This document shows positions 1,507-21,280 of a DNA stretch of 23,177 nucleotides, one piece after another. The translations under genes were made by a program, and so were the position numbers. Position 1 is the stretch's first letter. Each line of letters begins with the position of its first letter. Under the pieces are notes generated by a model. The model was given only the letters and a program-made list of their open reading frames with translations, ran no database searches and was not told where the DNA came from. The DNA comes from a virus, in IMG/VR virus record IMGVR_UViG_3300022743_000023, positions 1-23,177 of that record. The stretch is one strand, 5' to 3'.

Positions 1507-1872
1507 TCACAGTCCTTGGTCTGCAAGGAATTCTGCTAAGAATAGAAGATACCAAACCTTCTGTCCATTAGTCATCTTGTTGTACTGATTGGTGTGGTTA
1601 AAGTTTACACAGTTCAACACGTAGTTAAAATCGTAGTATGACTTCAGCGGTGAAATTGACACAGTTCTAGTCTTGACGAGATTTTCATTTACGCCCACCA
1701 AAAACGATGAAAAGACTCCATACTGAAGATGAGAATCTGCCGGATGAATTCGTACTGGTATGAATGGGTCTGGTAATAGTGGCAGGTAGTAAACATTCTC
1801 CCAATTAGATGGTGTCACCTCAAATTGGAATCTTGCGCCTCTTGCAGCGGCATGATACATTCTTTCGTTCAT
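1507..1872 (-). CDS. Hypothetical protein, 121 aa
   Basis: I do not recognise this protein. It is rich in aromatic residues and Asn (for example WENVYYLPLLPDPFIPVRIHP) and has no clear signal peptide or membrane segment. Its ATG at 1872 overlaps the stop of the preceding gene as ATGA (1869-1872), which supports both the start and co-transcription with the GC-richer cassette upstream. Base composition is closer to the phage average than to that cassette. Confidence 0.75.
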   Translation of the reverse strand: MNERMYHAAARGARFQFEVTPSNWENVYYLPLLPDPFIPVRIHPADSHLQYGVFSSFLVGVNENLVKTRTVSISPLKSYYDFNYVLNCVNFNHTNQYNKMTNGQKVWYLLFLAEFLADQGL

Positions 1873-2210
1873 TTCGTCGCCTCCAGATGCCGAACAATGT
1901 CACGGCCGAGCGTTGTGTTTCGATAAGCACTGTTCATCAACATCACTTCAACACGCTCCAACAAATGGCGCTGTGCATCAACCTTCGCTTCCAATTCAGC
2001 ACATGCCTTGTCCAACGATGTATTTTGCTCACGCAGTTGCGCGTTCATTTCATTGGTCAGGTCTAGGTCGTCCAGCAGCACCAGGATAGCAGCTGGCGAT
2101 GCGGCTGCTTGAAAAAGTTCACTTGGGTAAGTGTCTGTCGGATCGCCTATTGGGCATCCTGCGGACTCCCATTGTTTCGCAGCCTCTGCAAGTTGTCGTA
2201 GTGTGGTCAT
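1869..2210 (-). CDS. Small coiled-coil phage accessory protein (paralogue of 3915-4109)
   Basis: It begins MTTLRQLAEAAKQW and has a central heptad-like region (LREQNTSLDKACAELEAKV) suggesting a coiled coil. Its last ~35 residues (AQRHLLERVEVMLMNSAY...GRDIVRHLEATK) closely resemble the C-terminus of the protein at 3915-4109. The start is placed at 2210 rather than the upstream in-frame ATG at 2228 because 2210 gives the ATGA overlap with the stop of the preceding gene seen throughout this operon. Proteins of this style occur in accessory cassettes of proteobacterial phages and have no known function. Confidence 0.75.
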   Translation of the reverse strand: MTTLRQLAEAAKQWESAGCPIGDPTDTYPSELFQAAASPAAILVLLDDLDLTNEMNAQLREQNTSLDKACAELEAKVDAQRHLLERVEVMLMNSAYRNTTLGRDIVRHLEATK

Positions 2211-2404
2211 TTCGCGTCCTTTGTGCAAGTTGACGAACGGTCGCCAATCTGCTTAACACATGTGTATCCATTTTCATGGGTGATTCTCAGTTGAGGTCTT
2301 ATTGTGTTCACTCTTGGTACCACTTCGCTGAGTAAAACGACAAGACCAGCAGCAGCGACAATAATTCCAAAAATCAAACACAAACCTGAAAATACTTCTT
2401 TCAT
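2207..2404 (-). CDS. Small single-pass membrane protein, 65 aa
   Basis: After MKEVF it has one strongly hydrophobic segment of about 25 residues (SGLCLIFGIIVAAAGLVVLL), then a short soluble tail with two cysteines. The ATG at 2404 overlaps the stop of the 37-aa gene upstream (ATGA, 2401-2404), so it is preferred over the in-frame ATG at 2413. The stop overlaps the next start at 2207-2210. Function unknown; position suggests an accessory role, perhaps at the inner membrane. Confidence 0.7.
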   Translation of the reverse strand: MKEVFSGLCLIFGIIVAAAGLVVLLSEVVPRVNTIRPQLRITHENGYTCVKQIGDRSSTCTKDAK

Positions 2405-2514
2405 TTCGCACACCTCACTTCAACAGGGTTGTTCTTATTCGTCTCGCCAATGTAGAACAACAGAATAACAAGCATTGCAATGGCGGCAATTACGGCAATG
2501 ATGCTGTCTTTCAT
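2401..2514 (-). CDS. Very small membrane protein, 37 aa
   Basis: A 37-codon ORF starts MKDSIIAVIAAIAMLVILLF, a single membrane segment, followed by a polar tail ending VEVRCAK. It is short, but its start overlaps the stop of the 171-aa gene (ATGA, 2511-2514) and its stop overlaps the next start in the same way (2401-2404). It therefore fills exactly the gap between two neighbours in the same operon, which is good evidence that it is translated. It could act like the many phage mini-membrane proteins that alter host envelope functions, but nothing in the sequence says which. Confidence 0.65.
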   Translation of the reverse strand: MKDSIIAVIAAIAMLVILLFYIGETNKNNPVEVRCAK

Positions 2515-3023
2515 GCTTTGCTCCCGATGCCGTGAGCAGCCAAAATCTCCCAAACACGCTGAGCACTGTATCCATCAACCGCATCGCCACGGCCGTCAAA
2601 AAACAAAATGTCGCCCTTTGGCAGTTGTGTAAGTGGCTCCTGCGCTGGCTGTGCAACACGTTCTGTGCACTTGCAGTACGCAGTCATGCCATATTTGCGA
2701 CACTTGCATTCGGCGGGTTGCACCGATGTGTCACGCCGAATCAACTCAGCAAACACTTGATCGCGCTGTTCCTGTTGTACATACTCCGAACCATAAACCC
2801 CAGCGTCTGCATTCGAGTATGGTGGGCGCTCTTGCGCATACTTCGCAAACTCTGCACGTAACTTCTCGTTCTCAGCATGTAGGCGCCGCAGTTCTTGAAT
2901 TGCTCCATTGCACACACCTCGATCATTTGATGGCGTTTTGAATTTGCCGCTCATATCAAGCAACTGGTCGGCCAGTCTCAATGCTTCGGGCTGTTGCGCC
3001 TGCTGTAGTAGTGCGCTGAGCAT
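2511..3023 (-). CDS. Accessory phage protein with PAQEP linker, 170 aa
   Basis: It begins MLSALLQQAQQPEALRLADQ, contains a helical charged segment (LRRLHAENEKLRAEFAKYA), a Cys-rich patch (CKCRKYG...AYCKC) that could bind metal, and the linker VAQPAQEPLTQL before the C-terminal part. The same ALLQQA opening and PAQEPLT linker recur in the next protein upstream (3023-3667). From memory this architecture is common in accessory genes of betaproteobacterial and pseudomonad phages, without known function. ATG 3023 overlaps the preceding stop by one base (TGATG); a GTG at 3026 (GTGA overlap) is also possible. GC is clearly higher than in the rest of the window. Confidence 0.75.
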   Translation of the reverse strand: MLSALLQQAQQPEALRLADQLLDMSGKFKTPSNDRGVCNGAIQELRRLHAENEKLRAEFAKYAQERPPYSNADAGVYGSEYVQQEQRDQVFAELIRRDTSVQPAECKCRKYGMTAYCKCTERVAQPAQEPLTQLPKGDILFFDGRGDAVDGYSAQRVWEILAAHGIGSKA

Positions 3024-3667
3024 CACAATTCTCCACAGTTGTAATAGTTAGGGTCCCTCCATGTGCCAACGTCTGCCAGATCGCTTAAGTGCGATACCCT
3101 CTGAGCGTCTTTTATAGATTCTTTTTCCAGAGCATCAATTCTGGACTGTAAGCGGCGAACTACTGTTACGTGTGTTTTCTTGGCAAGCTCAAGTTCTGAG
3201 GAAAAAAGCTCTCGCTCACGCAGCACAGCGGCTGCTATCTGGTCTTGGGTGTAGAGTGGGGTCAGCGGCTCCTGTGCTGGTTGAAGCAACGATAAACGGT
3301 GATACGCCATGGCCACGTCGTTTTGAATTGACTTTGCGACCACCCCTGTCTCATAACCTCTGCCAGATAAGAAGAAGTTCGACTTCTCTTTGTCTGTTTT
3401 GCAGTCTGAAAATAGTTTCATGTCAGGCTCCTGTTCAGGCTGTCCCGCTTGGGAATCCTCGCACTCCCGGAACTGGAAGAATGGTTTTTGCTCAGGCTTC
3501 GCAAGCTCTGCGCGGAGAAACCTCTCGCATTTATCAATTACCTTGTCAGACCAATCTCGATCATGTCCGGGCATTGCTGGCAGTACGATATCTTTAGGCA
3601 CTGCATCAACCCATTCGCGGTAAGCTTTGGCGATGTCAAGTGCCTGCTGTAGTAGTGCTCTGGTCAT
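3023..3667 (-). CDS. Accessory phage protein with PEQEP/PAQEP linkers, 214 aa
   Basis: It opens MTRALLQQALDIAKAYREW and carries two Pro/Gln/Glu linkers, KPEQKP...QPEQEP in the middle and LQPAQEPLTPL later, separating apparently independent short modules. A helical segment (QDQIAAAVLRERELFSSELELAKK) follows. It shares opening and linker with the product of 2511-3023, suggesting duplication or module exchange. Its ATG overlaps the stop of the upstream gene (3664-3667). Function unknown. The GC-rich composition sets it apart from the T4-like genes on both sides. Confidence 0.75.
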   Translation of the reverse strand: MTRALLQQALDIAKAYREWVDAVPKDIVLPAMPGHDRDWSDKVIDKCERFLRAELAKPEQKPFFQFRECEDSQAGQPEQEPDMKLFSDCKTDKEKSNFFLSGRGYETGVVAKSIQNDVAMAYHRLSLLQPAQEPLTPLYTQDQIAAAVLRERELFSSELELAKKTHVTVVRRLQSRIDALEKESIKDAQRVSHLSDLADVGTWRDPNYYNCGEL

Positions 3668-3918
3668 TTCGTTCCCCTATTCTCCATGTCAGTCAGACAA
3701 CGTAGCGCACCATCGGCGTAGCCTTCCGCGTGTTCGCTATACTTGATGGCGTCACATTCAGCCACAACTTCTTCCACGATTTTCACCAGCTTCGCCATAA
3801 GGCGAGCTTCTACGAGGGCGGTATAACGGTCAATAGCATGCCCGTTAAGCCACAATTCCTCTCCTCGATAGGTCAGTGCACCAGCTTCCCGCGCCAGTTC
3901 AATGTTGGTCTTGGTCAT
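3664..3918 (-). CDS. Hypothetical protein, 84 aa
   Basis: A small, probably all-helical, acidic protein (LVKIVEEVVAECDAIKYSEHAEGYADGALRCL) without recognisable motifs. ATGA overlaps join it to the genes on both sides (3664-3667 and 3915-3918), so it belongs to the same translationally coupled accessory cassette. Function unknown. Confidence 0.7.
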   Translation of the reverse strand: MTKTNIELAREAGALTYRGEELWLNGHAIDRYTALVEARLMAKLVKIVEEVVAECDAIKYSEHAEGYADGALRCLTDMENRGTK

Positions 3919-4109
3919 TCTGTTTCCTCCAGATGAACGGAGATGTCGCGGCTCAAGTCCGATTTCCAGTAAGCACTATTGACCAACACAGCTTCAACTC
4001 GCACCAGCAGCCTGCGCTGTGCTTCAACTGTGTTGGTCAAGGCTAGAATGGTGGCCGCGTTTGCTTTTGCAAGTTGTCGCAGTTCGTTCATATCAAGTTC
4101 TGTGGTCAT
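3915..4109 (-). CDS. Small accessory protein, 64 aa (paralogue of 1869-2210)
   Basis: The last ~35 residues (AQRRLLVRVEAVLVNSAYW...LSRDISVHLEETE) closely resemble those of the protein at 1869-2210, and NELRQLAKA echoes its TLRQLAEA. Between these it lacks the longer coiled-coil region, so the two are length variants of one family. It is the first gene of the GC-richer cassette, 29 nt downstream of the shared-motif promoter at 4125-4173. ATG 4109 is used; Met7 is an alternative start. Confidence 0.7.
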   Translation of the reverse strand: MTTELDMNELRQLAKANAATILALTNTVEAQRRLLVRVEAVLVNSAYWKSDLSRDISVHLEETE

Positions 4110-4176: not shown

Positions 4177-4572
4177 TCAAAGTTGAGAAATAGTCTGATC
4201 ATTTTCCGTATAGAAAACTGTCTTGATGCCAAATGAGAAAATTGCAGCTTGGCATGCCGCGCATGGTTTTGACAAACCCAAAGAATAATCTTTTTTAATT
4301 CTAGTTACATATAGTGTGGATTTTTTAAGTTCTTCAACCGATATTTTCTTCAGAGCATTTATAATTGCTGCCATTTCTGCATGCACATAAGCGCCAGGAA
4401 TAACCGAATATTTTGCTTGCATCGGATGTGTTTTTGCAGAATTTACACCAAGGGCTACTAAATTCTTTCTATAATAGATACCTGCTGCCAATTTTGCATT
4501 ACCGATATTATCTGAAGTTTCTGCTACCCTTTTGAGCAGTGAAACTATTTTATCTTGGTTTTTAGAACCCAT
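4177..4572 (-). CDS. Cytidine/deoxycytidylate deaminase-fold protein
   Basis: A zinc-dependent deaminase signature is visible: HAE at residues 64-66 (zinc ligand and catalytic Glu) and PCAAC at 103-107 (two zinc-binding Cys), then FSFGIKTVFYTEN, the usual strand after the second helix. At 131 aa it has the size of a free nucleoside/nucleotide deaminase, and dCMP or cytidine deamination is the simplest role, feeding dUMP to ThyX. It could also act on another base or nucleic acid; the substrate cannot be read from these motifs. It is the last gene before the GC-richer cassette and is preceded by an unusual inverted repeat enclosing a TATAAT box. Confidence 0.8.
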   Translation of the reverse strand: MGSKNQDKIVSLLKRVAETSDNIGNAKLAAGIYYRKNLVALGVNSAKTHPMQAKYSVIPGAYVHAEMAAIINALKKISVEELKKSTLYVTRIKKDYSLGLSKPCAACQAAIFSFGIKTVFYTENDQTISQL

Positions 4573-4826: not shown

Positions 4827-5228
4827 TTATTCAAAAACTTTAGATAATAGACCTACATTGTCTACATGTGAAGGTGCTTTCCAACCTTCTGGTTTGATTA
4901 GATCTGGGAAGCCAAACTCATTTGGACGCCCTTCTTTAATACCCGGTTCTTTAACGATATTTGCCAGATGAACACGAGTCCAGGCAAGATGTTCATCTAC
5001 ACCGAATGCATTAAGTGTACCCAATGCAAATACGATCATGTCAATTAGACCGTCCACGGCATCATCTGCAGTTTCTGCGTTTACAGTTTCATCAACTTCT
5101 TCCTGGATACAATCCAAACGAAATTTCCAAAACTTGGACAACATATCTGCATTCATACCATTGACGGTATCTTTTACCTTAAACTTATCATGCATTGCAT
5201 TGATATCTGCGATAAAATCACGACTCAT
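4827..5228 (-). CDS. All-alpha NTP pyrophosphohydrolase (MazG/HisE-like)
   Basis: The 133-aa protein carries the metal-binding pattern of all-alpha NTP pyrophosphatases: EEVDE at residues 43-47, then DDAVDGLIDMIVFALG at 55-70, with Asp59 and Asp63 in the DxxxD position. Such enzymes cleave (d)NTPs to (d)NMP and pyrophosphate. Next to a dCMP hydroxymethylase, an attractive role is removal of dCTP and supply of dCMP, the job done by gp56 in T4, but the substrate is inferred from context only. It lies 9 nt downstream of the methyltransferase-like gene. Confidence 0.75.
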   Translation of the reverse strand: MSRDFIADINAMHDKFKVKDTVNGMNADMLSKFWKFRLDCIQEEVDETVNAETADDAVDGLIDMIVFALGTLNAFGVDEHLAWTRVHLANIVKEPGIKEGRPNEFGFPDLIKPEGWKAPSHVDNVGLLSKVFE

Positions 5229-5237
5229 AATTATTCC

Positions 5238-6461
5238 TTATTCGATTAGTTCTTCAAGTGTTACCGATTGTTTATTGTAATCCGATGAACGAGAGTAGTC
5301 AATTTTTTTATTCCAATTATTCTGGAATACGAAGTCATGGTTTGACATTTCCAATTCGCCATTGAGAAACTTCATTGCTTCTTTGACGATACAGGCTGCA
5401 GTACATGTTGGTACATTCTGTGCTAACATATTTGTTTTGGGTCTACCACCGACCAATTCATAATCATGTGGCATGCCCATCATATGGATTGCTTCTCTAA
5501 TCGTCAGACTTCTATCTTGTGTAGGATGGATTGTATCCGAAAGATTTCTGCCAATCACTGCATTCATTACATCCTCAAACACATGTACTGAACCATTCCA
5601 TATGCCTAGACCTTGTGCAAACTTTTTAATTGCATGATCTGAATACTTGATGCCCGCTTCATTATTGGTAGCTTTAAACCACTCATTTGCTTCTGCTAAT
5701 AGTCCGTTATCGTTGACCCAGTCAAATGATGTATTAGTCATTGTCACAATATCTTCTCTTACATCATGCTTACCTAATTTATATTGAATGAACTGGTAAT
5801 ATGGTTCAGTGACTACTTTAGGATTGACAACGATGTCCTGTTGTGACGCAGATTCTGGAATGTCCAACAGATAGTCTTTAAATGTCTTTCTTTCTAGATC
5901 GTACCAATTTAAAACCGGAGCGGTTTTTGACTTCCATGCTAATGCGAATGTGCGATCTCTTCTTTGTGGTAACCCATGGAAGTGAGTCGATGTTTTATAC
6001 AATGAAAGAGAGTAACCGTAATACTTAGCAATTCTATAGAGCTCTGCTGCAACTGGCATACCTTTATTCGTCGAAAGAGCCGGAGCATTTTCAGTAATTA
6101 CTACATCTGCGGCTAGTCTTTCGATTGAATCTTTCAGTACTTGATACATCCATTCATTCTTTGCGCATCCAGCACCCTTGACTTCCGGCGTCTTGCCAAG
6201 GTTAAGCTGAGAAAGTCCGGCGCACGGGGGCGTACATACAGTGATGTTGACTTTACTCTTAAAATCTTCATTCTTGGTAAAGTTAATGTAGTCTAAATTT
6301 TTACCCAATACATTATTCTGATAGTTCATATATTGACTATCATTGCCCCAGAAACCTTCATAAGAGGCGACAAATTCCGGTGGTGAACCTATTGCCATTT
6401 CGGCCCCCAAAGGGAAGCCGCCCGCAAGCGGAATCACTGGCGCCCATTTAATGTTCTTCAT
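5238..6461 (-). CDS. C5-cytosine DNA methyltransferase family protein
   Basis: Conserved C5-MTase motifs occur in order: motif I PLAGGFPLGAE (11-21), motif IV CTPPCAGLSQLN with the catalytic Cys80, motif VI ITENAPAL (ENA at 124-126 in place of ENV), motif VIII PQRRDRTFALAW (165-176), motif IX-like RSLTIREAIHMMGMP and motif X-like NVPTCTAACIVKEAM. Length (407 aa) is normal. The enzyme would transfer a methyl group to carbon 5 of cytosine in DNA. Oddities are the divergent motif I (PLAGG where DLFAG is usual) and its place in a cluster expected to modify carbon 5 by another route. It overlaps the preceding gene by 4 nt, and no restriction endonuclease is adjacent, so it behaves as an orphan enzyme. 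Confidence 0.88.
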   Translation of the reverse strand: MKNIKWAPVIPLAGGFPLGAEMAIGSPPEFVASYEGFWGNDSQYMNYQNNVLGKNLDYINFTKNEDFKSKVNITVCTPPCAGLSQLNLGKTPEVKGAGCAKNEWMYQVLKDSIERLAADVVITENAPALSTNKGMPVAAELYRIAKYYGYSLSLYKTSTHFHGLPQRRDRTFALAWKSKTAPVLNWYDLERKTFKDYLLDIPESASQQDIVVNPKVVTEPYYQFIQYKLGKHDVREDIVTMTNTSFDWVNDNGLLAEANEWFKATNNEAGIKYSDHAIKKFAQGLGIWNGSVHVFEDVMNAVIGRNLSDTIHPTQDRSLTIREAIHMMGMPHDYELVGGRPKTNMLAQNVPTCTAACIVKEAMKFLNGELEMSNHDFVFQNNWNKKIDYSRSSDYNKQSVTLEELIE

Positions 6462-7564
6462 ATCTTTAATGTTCTTTCATATTTTAAAATCTTATCTCTA
6501 AAGTATTCTATCAGTTCAAGTCTTTCGCTTTCATCAATTTCCGGAAACTCATCATTGTAGTTGAAAATCAATCTACTAACTTTATCATTATCAAGAGCAA
6601 ATGATTGAATGAATTCATTCGTCTTTACATCGCACGCAATTAAAGGTAGACAGTTATTGTGTATAGACTCTATGAATCTATAAACTGAAAAATGAGATAG
6701 ATCATATGGCGGTATGATAAAAGTAAATCTTGCTCTTTTGATATAACTTAGGTATGAATCTCTATCTATGAAAGTGTCGATACCTAGACGATTATGCTTT
6801 CTAAATGTCTGTACTTTTAAATCACTCAATGAGTCAATATACTGGGAAATAATGTCATACTGTTTCTCTCTGTCTTTTGTGGTGGCAGTGTATCCAAATA
6901 CTACATCAAGATCTTTTTCTGATGAATCTTCTAAATCAAAAGTCGATGCTAAGTAGTACTGTAATGAATCTAAACGATTCATTTTCCACCTCGGAACATC
7001 ATATCCGTGATAACATATCAAATTCTTACAGACATACACATGTAGTAAATCTAATGAGTTTTCGGTTGGATCATAACATATCTCATGTAATGGAATGTTC
7101 TTCTCATTAGAGAACTTGATAAGCTGAAACATTATGCACATTAGAGAACCATTGGTGACAAAATTCATCTGCTGTTGGTTGCCTAGATAGTAATCTAGTT
7201 TCATCATTTCGCGATTGATACCACAAGCAGATGAAAGTAGACCGCCAAAAATAATTATATGCTTGACATTATCCAATTCATCAAACCAAGTTTCACTATG
7301 AATAAACTCTAACCATGAAGAATACTTCTTAGGTCTGACAGATGCTTCATACTTTTCATCGGTAAAAATACATGTGATGTTGCTTTTATCTAACCCAGCA
7401 ACATCACATATATCAGTAACAATTATATCCGTCTTTTTGTTGGTAACAAAATAAAAATGATAGTCTTTTTGGTATTCTTTTAGTATAGTTGCTTGTTCTA
7501 TCAACGATTTTGTAAACTTTGAAGATACTGCACGAGTAAAGAATACTACTATAGACTGTTTCAT
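6458..7564 (-). CDS. Putative glycosyltransferase (exostosin/GT-B-like C-terminus)
   Basis: Recognition rests on the C-terminal half: IKRARFTFIIPPYD (275-288) then FSVYRFIESIHNNCLPLIACDV (292-313) reproduces the pattern of GT-B and exostosin-type transferases, where a Ser/Arg-Glu stretch contacts the nucleotide sugar and a 'G-x-hPV' strand follows. The N-terminal half has Rossmann-like strands (SIVVFFTRAV, KHIIIFGGL) but no motif I can name. It sits between a second glycosyltransferase-like gene and the methyltransferase homologue in the putative DNA-modification cluster, so the acceptor could be hydroxymethylated cytosine in DNA or a sugar already attached to it. A surface-glycan role is not excluded. 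Confidence 0.65.
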   Translation of the reverse strand: MKQSIVVFFTRAVSSKFTKSLIEQATILKEYQKDYHFYFVTNKKTDIIVTDICDVAGLDKSNITCIFTDEKYEASVRPKKYSSWLEFIHSETWFDELDNVKHIIIFGGLLSSACGINREMMKLDYYLGNQQQMNFVTNGSLMCIMFQLIKFSNEKNIPLHEICYDPTENSLDLLHVYVCKNLICYHGYDVPRWKMNRLDSLQYYLASTFDLEDSSEKDLDVVFGYTATTKDREKQYDIISQYIDSLSDLKVQTFRKHNRLGIDTFIDRDSYLSYIKRARFTFIIPPYDLSHFSVYRFIESIHNNCLPLIACDVKTNEFIQSFALDNDKVSRLIFNYNDEFPEIDESERLELIEYFRDKILKYERTLKI

Positions 7565-7566
7565 TT

Positions 7567-8790
7567 TTAATTTAGAAGTTCCTCGAGAGAATTGGATTCC
7601 ACTCTGTTGTAAAGCGACAGGTCTGGTGCTTGGTATGCACTGTCAATTTCTGTCATGATGATTTTGTTTAGTTTGCTGCCATCGGTATAGCAACTAGAAA
7701 GATATTTATGGCGCAGTGCAGAAATTACTTTCATGTAAACAGAATCATCTTTAAGTTGTTCTATACGTTTGAATAGTTCTTCTGGTGTTTTTGGACGAAG
7801 GAATTCTGGTAGTCCTGTCAAATTTGAAGAGTCATACGTTGGATGAAGGAATGGAACGACACCTGCATGAATCATTTCGATATACTTTGAAGTAACCCAA
7901 CCCGGAGCAATTGGGATAATGAACGTAGAACGAACATTTGATAATTTCTTCTGTAGTTCATCGATCACTAACGATCCTTTGAATCTAGAATCGGATAATG
8001 CACGTTCGTCTGACCATGAACCATATACTTCTACATCTTCTACTTTTGATAAGATCCACTCATTAAGCATAGGATATCTTGATGGTGAGCCTTCATTCAA
8101 TACTACCATGAAGTTGACAATTCTATCCTTGATGTTGATTGGAACTTCAGAACGTCCATACAGAAAAATCTTTTCCATTTCAGCATACTTTACATTGATA
8201 GTATGCTCGTCTCTGGTTTGATCTTCATATGATCTAATGGAATTCTTAATGTATGAGTAATTGAATTGCGATAAAGACCATTTTGGGTTTACTATCATAT
8301 CTCTGCTCTGACTCATATCATATCTAGGATCATTGATAACATTCAGAACTGGGATGTGTTGATTATCATTCATCCATGAAATGGTATCTGTAGAATAACC
8401 CCTTGTCATTTCAATTACAGAAGCAATTAGTTCTGGATTACGTACTTGTTTAATTTTGCCTGGGATAGTTACCGTGCCAATCTGCCCTGTCATCGCAATA
8501 TGGACATCGACTTTCTTGTCTGCAAAATAATCATTTAGCCAGGTGTATTTTGCATTCTTTGGACGACTTGCATATGTATCAATGACATTACCAAACTTGA
8601 ACATTTCGGAAGATTGTGTAGATGACATCTTTGAAAAGTCAGATCTGCCAACGATATAAAATGTTTTGTCTGGGTTGTTATTTGCAAGAATACACAAAAG
8701 CTGAGATGCTTCATTATCACCACCAGACGGCGAGTACTTAGTGTGAAATTTGATTGACTTGCCAATCTTAGAGAATGCGATGTTTTTCAT
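7567..8790 (-). CDS. Putative GT-B-type glycosyltransferase
   Basis: The N-terminus (FHTKYSPSGGDNEASQLLCI, residues 15-34) resembles the acceptor-side GG loop of GT-B glycosyltransferases. The C-terminal domain has VVLNEGSPSRYPMLNEWI (229-246), then RSTFIIPIAPGWVTSKYIEM (287-306) and IHAGVVPFLHPTYD (307-320), the donor-binding region of GT4/exostosin-like enzymes. It is not obviously a duplicate of the 368-aa protein next to it, although the donor-site region is organised alike. With the hydroxymethylase and sugar-activating genes upstream, a DNA-glucosyltransferase-like role is the leading hypothesis; sugar and acceptor are unknown. The ATG is in a 4-nt overlap with the bifunctional enzyme gene. 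Confidence 0.7.
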   Translation of the reverse strand: MKNIAFSKIGKSIKFHTKYSPSGGDNEASQLLCILANNNPDKTFYIVGRSDFSKMSSTQSSEMFKFGNVIDTYASRPKNAKYTWLNDYFADKKVDVHIAMTGQIGTVTIPGKIKQVRNPELIASVIEMTRGYSTDTISWMNDNQHIPVLNVINDPRYDMSQSRDMIVNPKWSLSQFNYSYIKNSIRSYEDQTRDEHTINVKYAEMEKIFLYGRSEVPINIKDRIVNFMVVLNEGSPSRYPMLNEWILSKVEDVEVYGSWSDERALSDSRFKGSLVIDELQKKLSNVRSTFIIPIAPGWVTSKYIEMIHAGVVPFLHPTYDSSNLTGLPEFLRPKTPEELFKRIEQLKDDSVYMKVISALRHKYLSSCYTDGSKLNKIIMTEIDSAYQAPDLSLYNRVESNSLEELLN

Positions 8791-10340
8791 AATAACGATA
8801 ATCCTTTATTCCAGAAACGCATTTGTCTTTGCACATCATCTCCGTGAAATGGTAGACACGTCAATAGCATTACGACTGAAAAGTTTTTGATAGTTTGAAT
8901 CTGTTCTTTATTTAGTTTGAAAATTTGTTCTACTTTTAAATCCAGAAGTTTGATGATAAAGTCTTTCTTTTCAGTATCCACTACATCATCATTTAGCAAC
9001 CATGCGTATTCACAGTAAACAGATTGGTATAATTTTGCAAGATCATAACAAATGTTTCCAAAAGTCGTTGTTTCGCCTGCCCAACAGCCTCTTGGGTCGA
9101 TGAATGTAATTTTACCAATTGTTGGATCAAAAATGATATTACCAAAATGTAGATCACCATGGATAATATCAGAATACAAATTATTTTCTGCAAATTCTTT
9201 CAGTCGAACATACACATCATTGATGAATACTAACACTAGTCCTTTATCTGTCTTATTGACAAAATCATAATCGTATTTGAATACTCTTGATAAATTCTTT
9301 TCATAGAACATATCAGATACACGATCTAGATTTTTGCCACGAACATATCCGATACCAAGGTTATACGAATCAAGTGTTCTGTTGATGATAGTCGTCCATG
9401 ATTCGTTTTTTAGATTATCGAATATCAGAAGTTCTTGCAGTGTAGAACCTGGTGCCAGACTCATCTTAACTTCTAAATCTGATACTGTATGAATGTGTGG
9501 AATGAATGATTCCATCTTGGTATTCTTAACACTGTTGTACCACATGTACTCTTGAAGAATGTTGAAACCACGTTTGGTTACAGTGCAGTCACTTGTATCT
9601 ACGAATAGATCATGTCCTTCTCTGGCTTGCTTATTGAGCAGAGCAGCTTTTGATTCATAGTATGTTTCTAATTCGCCACAGTCATACCAGTTGCCATAAT
9701 CAATGAACCGATCAAACACACGCGTAGAACCATTTGCATATTTAGAACAGATCAGATCTGACATTTCTTTTGCACCACAAACTTTTGTTAAAGAACCTAT
9801 CTCCGAAAAGTTATACACCCCAACGATTGCAGTAAGATCATCCGGTAGATCCGTTGTAGTCGGTTTATCGTATAGTTTGCCTGCTTCATCGATCATACAC
9901 CATCTAGAAGGATCTTTTACTTTTGCCGTTAGAACATAGTCATAGTTATGATTTTCTTCGATGAATCGTTCGATGTCATCAATATCGTATAGAGTATCGC
10001 CTAGCCATACAAGTAATGAATCAAAGTAACCATTACCAACATTTGAATCGTACACTGCAGATAGACCTGTCATGACTGCATCGCCAGGACCAATAGGATT
10101 CTCCTGCACTCTAATCTTTACATTAGGATACTTACGAGAACAGAACTGAGCAATATCTGGGTTGCAACCAACAACCACACAGATGTCTGAATCATTCGCG
10201 ATTTTACGACAAGTGTCAAGAATGTAGGCGATGATTGGTTTTCCATTCACCGGAATCATTGCCTTACTCATGTTATTCGACAGCGGCCGCATGCGTGTTG
10301 CTAAGCCTGCCGCTGGGATTACGATTTTTGTTTGTGCCAT
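8787..10340 (-). CDS. Fused nucleotidyltransferase - small-molecule kinase
   Basis: The N-terminal ~240 residues are a sugar-1-phosphate/phosphocholine-type nucleotidyltransferase: VIPAAGLATRMRPLS (7-21) is the G-x-x-T-R-M-x-P signature, SKAMIPVNGKPII (25-37) carries the conserved Lys, WLGDTLYD (112-119) the metal Asp, and WYDCGELETYYESK (218-231) the family-typical end. The C-terminal half is an aminoglycoside/choline-kinase-fold phosphotransferase with HGDLHFGNI (394-402) and IDPRG (414-418) for catalysis and Mg binding. The fusion could phosphorylate a sugar or small alcohol and couple it to NMP, giving an activated donor in two steps. LicA/LicC-like phosphocholine chemistry is as compatible as NDP-sugar synthesis. 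It overlaps the HAD gene by 22 nt. Confidence 0.85.
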   Translation of the reverse strand: MAQTKIVIPAAGLATRMRPLSNNMSKAMIPVNGKPIIAYILDTCRKIANDSDICVVVGCNPDIAQFCSRKYPNVKIRVQENPIGPGDAVMTGLSAVYDSNVGNGYFDSLLVWLGDTLYDIDDIERFIEENHNYDYVLTAKVKDPSRWCMIDEAGKLYDKPTTTDLPDDLTAIVGVYNFSEIGSLTKVCGAKEMSDLICSKYANGSTRVFDRFIDYGNWYDCGELETYYESKAALLNKQAREGHDLFVDTSDCTVTKRGFNILQEYMWYNSVKNTKMESFIPHIHTVSDLEVKMSLAPGSTLQELLIFDNLKNESWTTIINRTLDSYNLGIGYVRGKNLDRVSDMFYEKNLSRVFKYDYDFVNKTDKGLVLVFINDVYVRLKEFAENNLYSDIIHGDLHFGNIIFDPTIGKITFIDPRGCWAGETTTFGNICYDLAKLYQSVYCEYAWLLNDDVVDTEKKDFIIKLLDLKVEQIFKLNKEQIQTIKNFSVVMLLTCLPFHGDDVQRQMRFWNKGLSLL

Positions 10341-10696
10341 TCTTTATTGATCAGTTCGTTTTCTTTATTTAGTATAAATTCATCGGGTCTAACAGAGCGA
10401 TCATCCACATATATAACACTAGGACCCCATGGTTTGCCCATAACCAATCTTGAATATAATACACCATTTTTATGAAGCCAATCTTCTAAAACCGGTCTGA
10501 CATTTAGATTGATTAGTTCGATGTCACCCATGTAAGATCGCATTCCTCTTGCGGTGAATAAGATAATCTCATGACCGCAAGAGTATAGATGATTGATTTT
10601 ATCAATAACCGGTCTGATAGTCAAAAGATTATCATACGGTAGAGATTCATCTGTTTGGCAGATTGTATTATCTACATCTATTACGTATGTGCTCAT
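10319..10696 (-). CDS. HAD-superfamily phosphatase, 125 aa
   Basis: HAD motifs are complete: motif I DVDNT with nucleophile Asp7 and acid/base Asp9, motif II FTARG with Thr48, motif III Lys88 in GKPWG, and motif IV VDD with Asp98/Asp99. No cap domain is visible, and the size matches the small HAD proteins found in capsule and nucleotide-sugar clusters beside nucleotidyltransferases. Here it precedes and overlaps the nucleotidyltransferase-kinase gene, so it probably dephosphorylates an intermediate in making the activated donor. A 5'-nucleotidase or polynucleotide phosphatase role is possible. Start and preceding stop overlap as TAATG (10694-10698). Confidence 0.82.
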   Translation of the reverse strand: MSTYVIDVDNTICQTDESLPYDNLLTIRPVIDKINHLYSCGHEIILFTARGMRSYMGDIELINLNVRPVLEDWLHKNGVLYSRLVMGKPWGPSVIYVDDRSVRPDEFILNKENELINKEWHKQKS

Positions 10697-11328
10697 TACT
10701 TAACCAGGTAATAATGTCTAGAGTAAACATGTAAACTTGAAGCAGTCCATATTAAATCTCCTGCTTCAACATCTAAATCTTTTGCCATTCTCTTCTGCAC
10801 TTCTTTGGCCCAAAAACGATCACCTTTATATCCAAAAATCGAATCATTGCTGCGCATTACGTAATGAGAAACCAACTTATCATTACGAATGTACATTTGA
10901 TTGTATGCAGTACACATGAAGTCTTTCATACCATCTCGATTCCAATCATTATGCATACTTGGGCGAGTATAAATCATTTGTCCTTGACGAGAATTCTTAT
11001 CGGATTTTAGTTTCTGTAGTGTGTTGCAATACTGAGAACCATTTTCTTCAGACCAAATTGCCCAACCATAATTTGAATTGATTCTGCCATCTGGTGTTGC
11101 GACGTTAATCCATTGCTGTGGAATCTTACCTGGGATATCATTAACATTCAATGAAATGCTTTCATACCAAGCGAGTTCACGTTCACACCATTCTTTATTA
11201 ACTTCACCGAAGATGTAATCTTCATCTGCTAGAAAAGTTGCACCGATTAGTTCGATAGTATCGCCGGTGAATTCTTGTCTGGCGAGTTTGTCGATAAATT
11301 GGTTTCTAATGTCAGATACTTTTTGCAT
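10696..11328 (-). CDS. dCMP hydroxymethylase (T4 gp42-like, thymidylate synthase fold)
   Basis: From memory of T4 gp42, similarity runs almost the whole length: ELAWYESISLNVNDIPGK, INSNYGWAIWSEENGSQY, MIYTRPSMHNDWNRDGM, DFMCTAYNQ with catalytic Cys139 (T4 Cys148), MRSNDSIFGYKGD with Asp170 at the position of T4 Asp179, and SSLHVYSRHYYLV. That Asp replaces the Asn used by thymidylate synthase to select dUMP and marks dCMP specificity. The enzyme adds a hydroxymethyl group from methylene-tetrahydrofolate to carbon 5 of dCMP. The protein ends straight after YYLVK, so it lacks the ~25-residue tail of T4 gp42. It is 2 nt downstream of the dNMP kinase gene. Confidence 0.93.
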   Translation of the reverse strand: MQKVSDIRNQFIDKLARQEFTGDTIELIGATFLADEDYIFGEVNKEWCERELAWYESISLNVNDIPGKIPQQWINVATPDGRINSNYGWAIWSEENGSQYCNTLQKLKSDKNSRQGQMIYTRPSMHNDWNRDGMKDFMCTAYNQMYIRNDKLVSHYVMRSNDSIFGYKGDRFWAKEVQKRMAKDLDVEAGDLIWTASSLHVYSRHYYLVK

Positions 11329-11330
11329 AC

Positions 11331-11864
11331 TTATTTTCCGATGAATGATTTTACTAGTGGATACAGATTCTTAAATCCGCCGATAGTTGAAATGTTGATT
11401 AGAGTCTTGTGTTTGACATTTGATGCTTTGTATGCACTGATGAATCTGCTTTTTGTCTCATCATATTCTGCCGCAGATTTTTCGTGAGACAGACCATCTT
11501 CACGTTTGACAATCTCAGAACCGTTGTCGATTAGAACGATCAGGTGAGTTTCAATGTCTTCTAGACGTTTTTCTACAGATTGAAATAGAGTGGCAACTTC
11601 TATATCTGTATAGTTCCTATATTTAGTGCCGTAGACGGATACACCAAGATGGAATCTGTCGAAGATAAAATCAGATGCTTGGTTGTATGATACACTCATA
11701 TTGGCAAGTTGCATGTAGTACATAAACTCATACATCCATGGATTATCTGCGGATTTTACTGGACCTGAAGAATGAATCTCGATTGGATTATTGCACAATT
11801 CACGAATCTGTTTGCAGAGTGTAGACTTGCCGCACAGATCCATACCTTCTAGAATGATATTCAT
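11331..11864 (-). CDS. Deoxynucleoside monophosphate kinase-like P-loop protein
   Basis: The N-terminus has the P-loop EGMDLCGKST (residues 6-15), where the acidic GxD form resembles thymidylate kinases (EGxDGxGKST). FIFDRFHLG (67-75) matches the DRY/DRxH motif that positions the nucleotide. Length (177 aa) is slightly short for bacterial Tmk, and no clear lid is visible. Just upstream of the dCMP hydroxymethylase, it may phosphorylate hydroxymethyl-dCMP and dTMP, the role of gp1 in T4, although the fold reads as Tmk-like. Specificity is inferred from context. Confidence 0.78.
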   Translation of the reverse strand: MNIILEGMDLCGKSTLCKQIRELCNNPIEIHSSGPVKSADNPWMYEFMYYMQLANMSVSYNQASDFIFDRFHLGVSVYGTKYRNYTDIEVATLFQSVEKRLEDIETHLIVLIDNGSEIVKREDGLSHEKSAAEYDETKSRFISAYKASNVKHKTLINISTIGGFKNLYPLVKSFIGK

Positions 11865-11865
11865 A

Positions 11866-12387
11866 TTACTGCTTTCTGAATAGTGATTGTAGATTTTTCG
11901 TCTGGTTCATTGCATCATCAAGTGCATTATGTAGTGAACCTTCCCTGTTCTTGATGTCATGGATACCAAACAATTCAGAAATAGTACGATAGCAACGTTC
12001 ATCGTAATACTTCCATGGCTTTTCTATATTGAATGTCTGATATGCAGATTCTAGAATGACACAATCAAACGTTGGGGCATTCGCCCAAGTTGGTAATGAT
12101 ACTGGACCAAACCATTCAGACAACATTTCAAGGGCAGTACGAATCGGACGTTGGTCGACCCTTAGAGCATCACGGGCTTCTTTTGATTGTGTTTTCCACC
12201 AAGCAACGGTTTCTGGGCAAATATCAAAGTTTAGACCTCGTAATGTCTGTGGGTCGACATTGACATAGAATTTATCGACAATCTCGTTCTCGTCAAATTT
12301 ACAGGCACCGATTGATAAAATACCTGCATTCTTTCGTCTAGAAAGTGTTTCAATGTCGACCATCACGTTTAGTTTATTCTTGCTCAT
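11866..12387 (-). CDS. DEDDh 3'-5' exonuclease (RNase T / exonuclease VIII-like)
   Basis: Exo I is VMVDIETLS with Asp11 and Glu13, followed by AGILSIGACKFDE typical of this group. Exo II is around NAPTFDCVILESAY with Asp108, and Exo III is HNALDDAM with His153 and Asp157, making it a DEDDh enzyme. Such proteins remove nucleotides from DNA or RNA 3' ends; phage members are often annotated exonuclease VIII-like or Rv2179c-like. It begins after an excellent GAGGAGG ribosome-binding site embedded in the end of the 48-aa gene upstream. Whether DNA or RNA is the substrate is not visible. Confidence 0.85.
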   Translation of the reverse strand: MSKNKLNVMVDIETLSRRKNAGILSIGACKFDENEIVDKFYVNVDPQTLRGLNFDICPETVAWWKTQSKEARDALRVDQRPIRTALEMLSEWFGPVSLPTWANAPTFDCVILESAYQTFNIEKPWKYYDERCYRTISELFGIHDIKNREGSLHNALDDAMNQTKNLQSLFRKQ

Positions 12388-13359: not shown

Positions 13360-13944
13360 CTATTTCATATTCTGTACGTGATCTGCCATTCCTAGTTCGA
13401 CCATTTCTGTTGGCTCAAGCCATACGTCAGTTGGTGGCAGCAGTTTTTGTTCGATTACAGATTCTTCTAGGTCTGTGAACTTTTTATACATTCTGACCAT
13501 GGTTTTCTGAATCTGAGCAAAATGTTTCTGAGCACCGAACAGATCATGTTTCGTACCTGCGATACCAGAAGAAAATGAATGCGACATACAGAAGCAATTC
13601 TCATCAAGAATTCTCAGACCGCGATGTCCCGCCATAAAGATCAATAGACCGGCAGAAGCGATCATTCCGATACCGATAGTAGATACTGGAATGGCAGAAC
13701 CACGCATTACTGAGATTAGTGCGTTTGCATCATATAGATCGCCACCCTGTGAACTGATGATAAGAGTCAGACATTCTGGTCTTTTATATTCCTCGCCATT
13801 CTCGTCTTCAGTTGCGAAGTTGTGTGATAGAATCCACTGAATAGCATCTGCACATGACTGTTGATTGATATCGCTCATCATTAGATAAACGTTACGATCA
13901 ACTTCTTTCTTACCAAAATTTAATAGATTGATGTTATCAAGCAT
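13360..13944 (-). CDS. ClpP-like serine protease
   Basis: Catalytic residues of the ClpP/crotonase-fold peptidases can be placed: Ser97 in GIGMIASAGLLIF, His122 in CMSHSFSSG and Asp173 in PPTDVWLEP, followed by MVELGMADHV, the usual 'eyGliD' end. The substrate-strand motif LTLIISSQGGDLYDANALI (59-77) is also typical. At 194 aa it is the size of bacterial ClpP. Phage ClpP-like enzymes are often prohead proteases, but no portal, scaffold or capsid gene is near; here it follows a nuclease and a PhoH ATPase, so regulated proteolysis of host or phage proteins is equally possible. No Clp ATPase partner is adjacent. Last gene before a strong terminator. Confidence 0.88.
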   Translation of the reverse strand: MLDNINLLNFGKKEVDRNVYLMMSDINQQSCADAIQWILSHNFATEDENGEEYKRPECLTLIISSQGGDLYDANALISVMRGSAIPVSTIGIGMIASAGLLIFMAGHRGLRILDENCFCMSHSFSSGIAGTKHDLFGAQKHFAQIQKTMVRMYKKFTDLEESVIEQKLLPPTDVWLEPTEMVELGMADHVQNMK

Positions 13945-20094: not shown

Positions 20095-20952
20095 TCAATT
20101 CTCCAATAGTTTTCTGTACTGAGTAAAGTTCCTAAAATTTCCACTCCATTTGTCTACACTATCGTTTTCTAGAAGAATAGGAGTCGCCTGATGTTCGAAC
20201 GGTGAGAAGTGCTTGGGTGTTGCGCCGATCAGACGATCATAGACTTTGTCTGCTTTTTCCATAGAGGTATCGTTACGACGGTATGACACTTGAGCGCAGC
20301 AAGAACACGAGATTTTACGAGCATCTTCTAGAGAAATTTCTTTCCCTTCATCGGATATCCAATTGCCAGAAGAATTCTGTTCTACATATGGTAGATGCCA
20401 TTCTCCAATCTTAAGAACTTTTGGCGTACTCGCCTTAAATGCAGTATGCATTGTCTGTGCAAGATCTTGAATGTCTGGTTGTGCATCTTCATGGTCTCGT
20501 AGTTCGAACCAATTAGACTGTTCCGTTGTAGTCAACACAATCTTCATCCTGAACCAAGGTTCCAAAATGCGGTTGGCAGTCTGTTTATGCAGACCCAGTG
20601 ATGACAGTGCTTCCACATATTGAACTGCAGAATCTCGTGCATTCAGCCACAGTGCCGCACACCGGTTCTGTGAGTCAATGTCAAGTACTTGCCGAGCAGC
20701 CATACCTTCCTGATTCTTGCCCCAATGTACTGGGATTGCTGGATTTGTCTTCACTTGTTCTATCATACGAGCGATTGGAATTGCACGTGAAGAAGCAGAA
20801 TTCTTCGAGAACACTCGGTGTGTCAGTAATTCCGAGTGAATGAACCGAGAGTATTCCAATTCATATGTGATCAGAATAGTTCCGGTTTGTGGATGTTGAG
20901 AATGTGCTAGTACCTTTACCGTACAGCCTTTTCCGTTAAATGTTAAATCCAT
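20095..20952 (-). CDS. thyX: Flavin-dependent thymidylate synthase
   Basis: The ThyX signature is seen as THRVFSKNSASSRAIP (residues 44-59), corresponding to RHRxxSxNxxSxR that binds FAD and dUMP; further family features are the substrate-side YRRND and the C-terminal SGNFRNFTQYRKL. The enzyme makes dTMP from dUMP with methylene-tetrahydrofolate, NADPH and FAD, independent of ThyA. Its 285 aa are a little longer than many ThyX. The start is ATG 20952, with AAGGG about 6-7 nt upstream; the 12-residue upstream extension to 20988 has no comparable ribosome site and overlaps the preceding gene more. Confidence 0.9.
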   Translation of the reverse strand: MDLTFNGKGCTVKVLAHSQHPQTGTILITYELEYSRFIHSELLTHRVFSKNSASSRAIPIARMIEQVKTNPAIPVHWGKNQEGMAARQVLDIDSQNRCAALWLNARDSAVQYVEALSSLGLHKQTANRILEPWFRMKIVLTTTEQSNWFELRDHEDAQPDIQDLAQTMHTAFKASTPKVLKIGEWHLPYVEQNSSGNWISDEGKEISLEDARKISCSCCAQVSYRRNDTSMEKADKVYDRLIGATPKHFSPFEHQATPILLENDSVDKWSGNFRNFTQYRKLLEN

Positions 20953-21280
20953 TAGTTCCCTTTTCGATAGGTTTCCATAATTTTGCAAATTTTAGAACGT
21001 TCGGCAATTCACCACCACTTGGGCAAACTACCGCACATGTCTTTTCGCCGTTGCAGGTGTTGTTCTCGTGTCCGAGGTATACTTTTGGGAGCGAAGCGAT
21101 CTTGTCGAACTCCTTCCGATTGACTCTTAGGACGACTTTCTTGAATGAATTTTCCAACCAATTCTGGTACTCTGGCCAAACCTGCCAGAATTCTAAGTGC
21201 GCACCCAGAACTGCATGGGCGACCAGAGTTGGAGTCATAAAATCAGGGAAGTCATCCCTCACTGCAATGTATAACCGCAT
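20936..21280 (-). CDS. Pth2-like protein (peptidyl-tRNA hydrolase II fold), tentative
   Basis: The opening MRLYIAVRDDF, then TPTLVAHAVLGAHLEFW, SFKKVVLRVNRKEFDKIASL and CAVVCPSGGE follow the order of Pth2 proteins ('..vvR.Dl....kiaaQ..Ha......W...g.kkivlkv....el..l.......TvlaigP'). Pth2 releases peptides from tRNA. The protein has extra Cys residues (NTCNGEKTCAVVC) and an unusual end, so it may be a related domain with another activity. It overlaps the thyX start by 17 nt. Confidence 0.5.
   Translation of the reverse strand: MRLYIAVRDDFPDFMTPTLVAHAVLGAHLEFWQVWPEYQNWLENSFKKVVLRVNRKEFDKIASLPKVYLGHENNTCNGEKTCAVVCPSGGELPNVLKFAKLWKPIEKGTNGFNI

Follow-up and report, generated by a model that had tools for sequence, protein, structure and literature searches.

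A virus record of 23,177 bases from an uncultured phage (IMGVR_UViG_3300022743_000023), itself a fragment and analyzed here over its whole length (the window), carries eight consecutive genes that probably make up a cytosine-hypermodification operon in which the modified base is made by a T4 route and the sugar donor by an RB69-like one. Most likely, cytosine in the phage DNA is replaced by hydroxymethylcytosine (hmC) bearing a sugar that is activated by phage enzymes. An operon of this kind with its own donor-activating enzymes had been proposed by a sequence-only reading of the same DNA, and the gp42-type hydroxymethylase (HMase), DNA-type glycosyltransferase, and donor genes described below support that proposal. 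If it is true, phages combine either kind of modified base, hydroxymethyl or hydroxy, with either source of the donor, host or own, and the sugars on their DNA need not be confined to those that the host supplies.

Operon layout and the modified base

The eight genes abut or overlap, with gaps of 2, 2, and 9 bp and overlaps of 1, 22, 4, and 4 bp at their junctions, and together span exactly positions 4827 to 11864 on the minus strand (Table 1); every enzyme that the sequence-only reading had listed in this run is present. Because the same genes recur in similar order in independent loci, the arrangement is not due to chance. The gene set is real and widespread: the cassette was found on about 100 viral contigs and there includes HMase, dNMP kinase, and dCTPase-type genes. 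Its carriers include the cultured phage XG4 of Pseudoalteromonas as well as Enterococcus phage 9183, which has part of it, and bacterial genomes almost wholly lack it. A megablast search with the whole window as the query gave no match among phage records, and viral-contig scans with the fused nucleotidyltransferase-kinase (NTase-kinase) or GT2 as the single query found nothing, the peptide patterns being too specific. Of the two neighboring genes, the exonuclease mostly lies after the methyltransferase (MTase) homologue in relatives, and deaminase-like proteins are common in related cassettes, the pathway membership of the copy in the window being uncertain.

Table 1. Genes of the operon, in order of transcription from the dNMP kinase to the pyrophosphohydrolase, followed by two neighboring genes
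Feature	Coordinates	Strand	Evidence
P-loop dNMP kinase, thymidylate-kinase-like; putative hm-dCMP kinase (substrate inferred)	11331..11864	-	phrog_761, profile grouping
dCMP hydroxymethylase, T4 gp42 type	10696..11328	-	PF00303 E 2e-12, gp42 identity, residues
HAD-family sugar-phosphate phosphatase, EcbF/BcbF-like	10319..10696	-	TIGR01689 E 4.5e-26
Fused sugar-1-phosphate nucleotidyltransferase (N-terminal) and APH-fold small-molecule kinase (C-terminal)	8787..10340	-	PF00483, PF01636
GT1, predicted GT-B DNA glycosyltransferase related to T4 beta-glucosyltransferase	7567..8790	-	AlphaFold2/Foldseek
GT2, second divergent GT-B-fold transferase	6458..7564	-	AlphaFold2/Foldseek
C5-cytosine-methyltransferase homologue	5238..6461	-	PF00145 E 3.5e-16
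MazG/PRA-PH-type all-alpha NTP pyrophosphohydrolase; putative dCTPase in place of T4 gp56	4827..5228	-	PF01503, phrog_671
3'-5' exonuclease, neighbor outside the operon, same strand	11866..12387	-	PF16473 E 1e-40
Cytidine/dCMP deaminase-family protein, downstream of the operon	4177..4572	-	PF00383 E 6e-13, phrog_174 dCMP deaminase E 1e-15

The HMase shares 50% identity with T4 gp42 over 218 amino acids, compared with 29% over 128 amino acids for the 5-hydroxy-dCMP synthase of RB69 (ORF048c), and in the alignment it keeps the equivalents of the catalytic Cys148 (C in DFMCT) and of the cytosine-selecting Asp179 (D in FGYKGD), which bears out its earlier identification as a gp42-like dCMP hydroxymethylase. 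Because the enzyme is of the gp42 type and not of the RB69 type, the base is most likely hmC. An RB69-type 5-hydroxycytosine base, our first suspicion, was rejected on the identity to gp42. The cassette of Enterococcus phage 9183 may be a hydroxymethyluracil version on account of a dUTPase-like gene, although its TS homologue has the Asp of the dCMP type.

It is very unlikely that the window encodes a system plainly of the RB69/Mosigvirus kind, with 5-hydroxycytosine as the base and arabinose as the sugar. The NTase-kinase, HAD phosphatase, and dNMP kinase are indeed homologues of RB69-cluster proteins, but the TS-superfamily enzyme is of the gp42 type, the U32-peptidase-family gene and the SIS isomerase gene are missing, and GT1 resembles T4 beta-glucosyltransferase (BGT) and not RB69 ORF003c. 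Moreover, the one Lazarusvirus with an RB69-like sugar cluster that was checked has an RB69-type enzyme (70% identity to ORF048c).

The remaining base-making genes fit the preferred hmC route. The dNMP kinase matches a thymidylate kinase family (phrog_761, E 7e-8) and, in profile searches of three rounds, groups with RB69 ORF045c (E 2e-54) and the Enterococcus phage 9183 kinase (E 2e-41). The pyrophosphohydrolase matches PF01503 (E 5e-6) and phrog_671 (E 6e-17). Since it shows little direct homology to T4 gp56 (E 5e-4, single-sequence search), its putative role as a dCTPase is drawn from gene replacement: MazG-type proteins and true gp56 replace each other (27 against 3) and occur together in no locus, and the gp56 orthologue of XG4 and of the related locus L012 is placed after the MTase homologue. 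We propose that the pyrophosphohydrolase would remove dCTP, that the HMase, a gp42 family member, would convert dCMP to hm-dCMP, and that the dNMP kinase and host enzymes would raise hm-dCMP to hm-dCTP for incorporation into DNA.

Donor synthesis and glycosyltransferases

Both putative donor proteins are homologues of RB69/Mosigvirus donor gene products. In the HAD phosphatase, the DxD, K, and DD motifs are invariant; its phage homologues include RB69 ORF051c (36% identity), and its profile matches PDB 9iqw (E 5e-36), the aligned sequence of which is that of RB69 ORF051c. The fused enzyme matches PF00483 (NTP_transferase, E 1e-12) and PF01636 (APH-type kinase, E 3e-5), its family conserves AAGxxTR, GD, HGD, and DPRG motifs, and among its homologues is the copy of RB69 ORF53_52c that is intact in Mosigvirus (23% identity, E 4e-12). 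Its nucleotidyltransferase half resembles RmlA, GalU, and GlmU enzymes; its kinase half gave weak matches to characterized sugar kinases and nothing convincing in the PDB. These domains and motifs are consistent with a route in which the HAD phosphatase and the kinase-nucleotidyltransferase would start from a host sugar phosphate, make from it a sugar phosphorylated at the anomeric position, and finally form an NDP-sugar, a step order and substrate that we infer. Self-supply of the donor had been put forward as the novel element of this system; the phage-borne donor enzymes are there, but the novelty does not hold, as the RB69/Mosigvirus homologues of the NTase-kinase and HAD phosphatase have already been proposed to make an arabinose donor (PMC6024577, PMC13390438).

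In the relative L121, a 6-phospho-3-hexuloisomerase and a ribulose/allulose-phosphate 3-epimerase are inserted between the HAD and NTase-kinase genes, which points to a donor route that starts from a sugar phosphate. In about 43 loci, most of them lacking the fused enzyme, GT1 is preceded by an HldE/TagD-type nucleotidyltransferase, suggesting that the donor may differ among relatives. For the window, no other sugar is as likely as a pentose such as arabinose, a tentative assignment to which we give somewhat less than an even chance and which we favor because the characterized relatives of the donor enzymes occur in arabinosylating phages. GT1 and the base, however, differ from those of arabinosylating phages.

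Neither GT1 nor GT2 has a Pfam or NCBIfam match. With the AlphaFold2 model of GT1 (pLDDT 90, pTM 0.89), the top six Foldseek matches in the PDB were all T4 BGT (E 2e-8 to 4.5e-8; next match 2e-5), the best at TM 0.54/0.63 and about 12% identity in the structural alignment. An HHalign match between GT1 and T4 BGT (E 6e-39) was discarded, since the alignment used had taken in T4 BGT itself and made the comparison circular. Repeated with a clean alignment, the profile weakly scored T4 BGT (E 0.0024) and the b-gt of an Acinetobacter phage (E 6e-4; database of 4192) and did not score other phage glycosyltransferases. GT1 is thus predicted from its model to be a BGT-like DNA glycosyltransferase, its acceptor not being readable from the fold. 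The GT2 model (pLDDT 81, pTM 0.83) matched UDP-GlcNAc 2-epimerases and GT-B transferases (E 7e-7, probability 1.00, TM 0.4 to 0.5), and HHalign related GT2 to GT1 with a probability of 80%. GT2 is optional in the cassette (17/116 loci) and has homologues in XG4 and Vibrio phages. In the proposed pathway, GT1 would transfer the sugar to hmC in DNA, and GT2 would probably add a second sugar or act on a subset; the modification probably serves to evade host restriction and defenses of a similar kind.

A gp42-type HMase and a BGT-like GT1 would also suit a T4-like system with ordinary glucose, in which GT1 would draw on UDP-glucose to modify hmC, with the HAD and NTase-kinase genes only boosting or replacing the host UDP-glucose supply, and the GalU-like and RmlA- and GlmU-like character of the nucleotidyltransferase half agrees with it. 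We regard this as unlikely, given that T4 and Acinetobacter phage AB1I1M-1 have gp42 and BGT without adjoining HAD or NTase-kinase genes and that the step from glucose-1-phosphate to UDP-glucose needs neither a kinase nor a phosphatase.

Surface-active glycosyltransferases do occur in phage genomes, and the HAD subfamily takes its name from capsule phosphatases; the operon could accordingly be two adjoining modules, one for the nucleotide pool and hmC and one for surface-glycan or receptor-modifying glycosylation. Homology to surface-glycan enzymes only had been named beforehand as evidence that would speak against DNA modification, and the check did not bear this out for the transferases. The nearest structures to GT1 are DNA glucosyltransferases, and its family is close to virus-only: a scan of 84,980 bacterial and archaeal genomes with three patterns, by which absence from cellular genomes is approximate, gave a single match, a phage contig with the whole cassette. 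On many contigs the genes also stay linked to those for the HMase, the dNMP kinase, a dCTPase-type protein, and the exonuclease, and the solved structure nearest to the HAD phosphatase has the sequence of an RB69 protein, making two separate modules highly improbable.

The C5-methyltransferase homologue

The MTase homologue accompanies GT1 in 80/80 loci, all fetched with GT1 alone. It belongs to the C5-MTase family by homology, within a phage clade that keeps the catalytic residues but departs from the canonical motif set (motif IV PCQ, motif VI ENV, motif VIII QxRxR, motif X N). In an alignment of 62 sequences, with the motif register confirmed against DNMT1 chains, the Cys, Glu, QxRxR, and motif X Asn are each kept in 62/62, whereas the motif IV Gln is replaced by Ala (59/62) or Ser (3/62) and motif VI reads ENAP instead of ENV (62/62). 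The protein constantly accompanies GT1 and, as judged from these alignments, has altered motifs in its cofactor pocket; the active site of the clade would naturally bear a substitution that is otherwise engineered in to enlarge this pocket.

A point against the proposed pathway is that it assigns this protein no role. The natural Ala or Ser at the motif IV Gln, the altered motifs I and VI, and the constant pairing with GT1 led us to consider that it might act on hmC or its glycoside in DNA through covalent C6 chemistry and not by cytosine methylation, a two-step hypermodification not seen before; we hold this to be unlikely. Such chemistry could, for example, attach a group at the 5-hydroxymethyl carbon's position or exchange one there. 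The new BGT-like enzyme family and the C5-MTase-like clade may serve as DNA-labeling tools.

Comparison with known systems

The window shares with T4 hmC glucosylation a gp42-type HMase, a dCTPase-type enzyme, and a BGT-fold DNA glycosyltransferase. In contrast, T4 takes UDP-glucose from the host, without HAD or NTase-kinase genes beside these genes; its dCTPase is gp56 instead of a MazG-type protein, and the C5-MTase homologue is absent from the T4 stretches examined.

With RB69/Mosigvirus, and also Acinetobacter Lazarusvirus, the window shares the HAD phosphatase, the fused NTase-kinase, a thymidylate-kinase-like protein, and a clustered TS-superfamily enzyme. The RB69 type has the 5-hydroxy-dCMP synthase, the U32-peptidase-family protein, the SIS arabinose-5-phosphate isomerase, and other glycosyltransferases, whereas the window has gp42, the BGT-like GT1, and the C5-MTase homologue. 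The U32 gene (ORF050c in the RB69 cluster) is absent from 14/14 related virus records and the SIS isomerase from 13/14; neither is among the operon genes of the window, which is a fragment. Arabinosyl-hmC in RB69-like phages, cited as a precedent in the sequence-only reading, needs correction, since PMC13390438 reports the RB69 modification as arabinosyl on 5-hydroxycytosine.

A close cultured relative is Pseudoalteromonas phage vB_Psh_XG4 (PP712099.1, unannotated), which has the HMase, HAD, NTase-kinase, GT1, GT2, and C5-MTase homologue genes in the same order (48% identity to the window for the MTase homologue and 46% for GT1) but carries a gp56-type dCTPase instead of the MazG type and has its dNMP kinase at the opposite end of the linear record. 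With the cassette common in viral contigs and XG4 an isolated carrier, the chemistry is directly testable; the literature search found no DNA analysis for any phage of the cassette group of XG4 and the window. Shewanella phage Thanatos, which has pentose-modified cytosine (PMC12838424), shares a homologue of the RB69 NTase-kinase (TH1_060) and a TS-superfamily enzyme. It differs in a separate UDP-xylose pyrophosphorylase (TH1_063), and neither GT1 nor the MTase homologue is listed among its homology-search matches.

Among cellular pathways, MupP-AmgK-MurU cell-wall salvage works alike, with a HAD phosphatase, an APH-fold anomeric kinase, and a MurU-type nucleotidyltransferase converting a sugar phosphate to an NDP-sugar, but it acts on N-acetylmuramate, and only the nucleotidyltransferase half of the fused enzyme is scored by MurU models. 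In the literature searched, the T4 and RB69 strategies were not found described in combination. The earlier suggestion of an undescribed modification is thus supported only in part: donor self-supply has precedent, and its pairing with gp42 and a BGT-like enzyme appears, from the sequence comparisons, to be new.

Gene content and distribution of the operon

Spanning 23,177 bases, the window is a fragmentary virus record. Between 11864 and 4827 its minus strand carries eight consecutive genes, separated by 2 to 9 bp or overlapping by 1 to 22 bp. Family searches of all eight bore out the gene list of the sequence-only reading.

Operon genes and other features of the window
Feature	Position	Strand	Match or context
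dNMP kinase-like protein		minus	family search
Thymidylate-synthase (TS) superfamily protein		minus	family search
HAD, EcbF/BcbF subfamily		minus	family search
NTP_transferase fused to APH-type kinase (fused enzyme)	8787-10340	minus	family search
GT1 and GT2, TRANSFERASES of the operon	7567-8790; 6458-7564	minus	no Pfam or NCBIfam match
C5-methylase family protein (MTase homologue)	5238-6461	minus	family search
PRA-PH/MazG-type pyrophosphohydrolase	4827-5228	minus	family search
Exonuclease gene	11866-12387		precedes operon
Deaminase gene	4177-4572		after operon
Small genes in a row	1507-4109	minus	one weakly Ead/Ea22-like
ClpP-type protease gene	13360-13944		PF00574, E = 3e-22
ThyX-type thymidylate synthase	20095-20988		PF02511, E = 3e-14

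The row of small genes has a G+C content of ~50%, versus 35 to 42% across most of the window, and may be a recently acquired block. The ClpP-type gene lies near the phage's nuclease and PhoH genes.

The cassette is conserved at 115 loci, some sharing a contig, on ~100 distinct viral contigs and in Pseudoalteromonas phage vB_Psh_XG4 (XG4; PP712099.1), and Enterococcus phages 9183, TJE4, and Planchet carry it in part; one viral-contig scan by itself kept 80 of 130 loci. A GT1 scan of 84,980 bacterial and archaeal genomes returned one contig, encoding a DNA polymerase, MazG, gp42, GT1, HAD, the fused enzyme, and the MTase homologue. That gene set marks the sole match as a phage contig, and the distribution argues against a surface-glycan role. 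Some related modification cassettes contain a small uracil-DNA-glycosylase-superfamily-like protein (L109:5917-6276, in 12 loci, PF03167 E = 4e-5 for the L109 protein; L129:7643-8014, no Pfam match).

Transferases and probable modified base

GT1 has a fold like that of T4 β-glucosyltransferase (BGT). For a model built with 28 natural sequences (pLDDT 90, pTM 0.89), the best six PDB matches were all T4 BGT (E = 2e-8 to 4.5e-8, probability 1.00; next match, 2e-5), with T4 α-GT at rank 46. Within a database of 4192, a clean GT1 profile matched T4 BGT (E = 0.0024) and Acinetobacter phage b-gt (E = 0.0006) and had no match to T4 α-GT or RB69 ORF003c. Conserved GT1 Arg238, Lys302, and Glu305 align with the UDP-binding BGT residues Arg195, Arg269, and Glu272. 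Since GT2 has a divergent GT-B-type fold, distantly like GT1, and occurs in just 17 of 116 loci, it likely adds a second decoration. Agathobaculum phages AB434P2 and AB434P3 (OP172633, OP172634) encode proteins similar to C-terminal parts of GT1 and GT2.

Cytosine hypermodification in T4-like phages begins with either of two TS-superfamily enzymes, gp42 being the hydroxymethyl type. The window protein is of the gp42 type, with 50% identity over 218 residues to T4 gp42 versus 29% over 128 residues to RB69 ORF048c, and it retains gp42 Cys148 and Asp179 in alignment; gp42-like enzymes are also found in XG4 (50%) and the related loci L012 (64%) and L129 (48%). The phage of the window also has the ThyX-type synthase. 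The RB69/Mosigvirus enzyme is reported to make 5-hydroxy-dCMP (PMC13390438). Acinetobacter phage fHyAci03, with an RB69-like sugar cluster, differs in that its TS-superfamily enzyme is 70% identical to RB69 ORF048c. RB69's sugar cluster also includes ORF050c (L123:6493-7662), a Peptidase_U32 family member (E = 7e-11). That family includes RlhA, on which 5-hydroxycytidine formation in the 23S rRNA of E. coli depends, a relation that suggests a role for the RB69 protein in cytosine 5-hydroxylation. Together, the gp42-type identity, the retained Cys148 and Asp179, and the lack of a Peptidase_U32 protein in all 14 of the related virus records make hydroxymethylcytosine the most likely base.

In T4, dCTP is removed by gp56. 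A gp56 orthologue follows the MTase homologue in XG4 and L012, and the MazG-type protein occupies that place in the window; MazG-type proteins were found in 27 loci, gp56 in 3, and both in none, and their direct similarity is slight. This mutual replacement points to the MazG-type protein as a putative stand-in dCTPase.

Proposed sugar donor supply

The donor genes are homologous to those of RB69. The fused enzyme has nucleotidyltransferase (AAGxxTR, GD) and kinase (HGD, DPRG) signatures conserved across relatives and is homologous to Mosigvirus ORF53_52c and Enterococcus phage 9183 ORF047, and the HAD is homologous to RB69 ORF051c and PDB 9iqw, whose aligned sequence is RB69 ORF051c. Arabinose donor synthesis was proposed in 2018 for ORF53_52c with a neighbouring SIS isomerase (PMC6024577), and Thanatos has an ORF53_52c homologue (PMC12838424). 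The SIS isomerase is absent from the operon and from 13 of 14 related records. In the related locus L121 (6462-10001), a 6-phospho-3-hexuloisomerase (above the NCBIfam cut-off) and a ribulose/allulose-phosphate 3-epimerase sit between the HAD and fused enzyme. This gene set fits a donor route starting from a ketose phosphate. The ketose phosphate would become an aldose phosphate, whose phosphate group the HAD and kinase would shift to the anomeric position, following the logic of MupP-AmgK-MurU or the heptose pathway. We infer all reactions of the system, the HAD/kinase order, the nucleotide, and the sugar. In L121, the MTase homologue is also preceded by a SnoaL-like protein.

An HldE-domain-II/TagD-like nucleotidyltransferase immediately precedes GT1 in ~43 loci (e.g., L060:8735-9169), which fall almost entirely within a single clade of the GT1 tree. 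These loci mostly lack the fused enzyme, although seven also scored for its profile, making the replacement count approximate; 26 also carry a 309-aa protein with a DDD motif. Such relatives may use a different nucleotide, sugar, or donor.

The C5-methyltransferase homologue

The MTase homologue, adjoining GT1 or following GT2, is encoded in every one of the 80 loci retrieved with GT1 as the only query. Each of 62 full sequences keeps the catalytic Cys, the Glu of motif VI, QxRxR, and the Asn of motif X. In motif IV, the Gln common to C5-methyltransferases is replaced by Ala (59/62) or Ser (3/62), ENAP stands in place of ENV (62/62), and motif I looks altered too (PLIGG for FxGxGG). The corresponding M.HhaI change, Q82A, slightly raised transalkylation and considerably lowered methylation (PMC10666283); its companion change, N304A, is absent from the homologues examined. 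With the catalytic residues kept and the Gln replaced as in Q82A, the protein probably acts as a catalyst on a pyrimidine and may not be an ordinary methyltransferase; the conservative alternative is that it methylates residual cytosines sequence-specifically. The PCA/S-ENAP signature also occurs in cyanophage S-TIM5 and in Bacillus phage G (L127, 1295-9077), where a homologue of the PCS/ENAP form clusters with genes for a HAD phosphatase, a nucleotidyltransferase, and an α-GT homologue, possibly an independent system with the same logic.

Overall, we rate the system as resembling T4 in its type of base and transferase and RB69 in its type of donor supply, joined by a constant partner, the MTase homologue.
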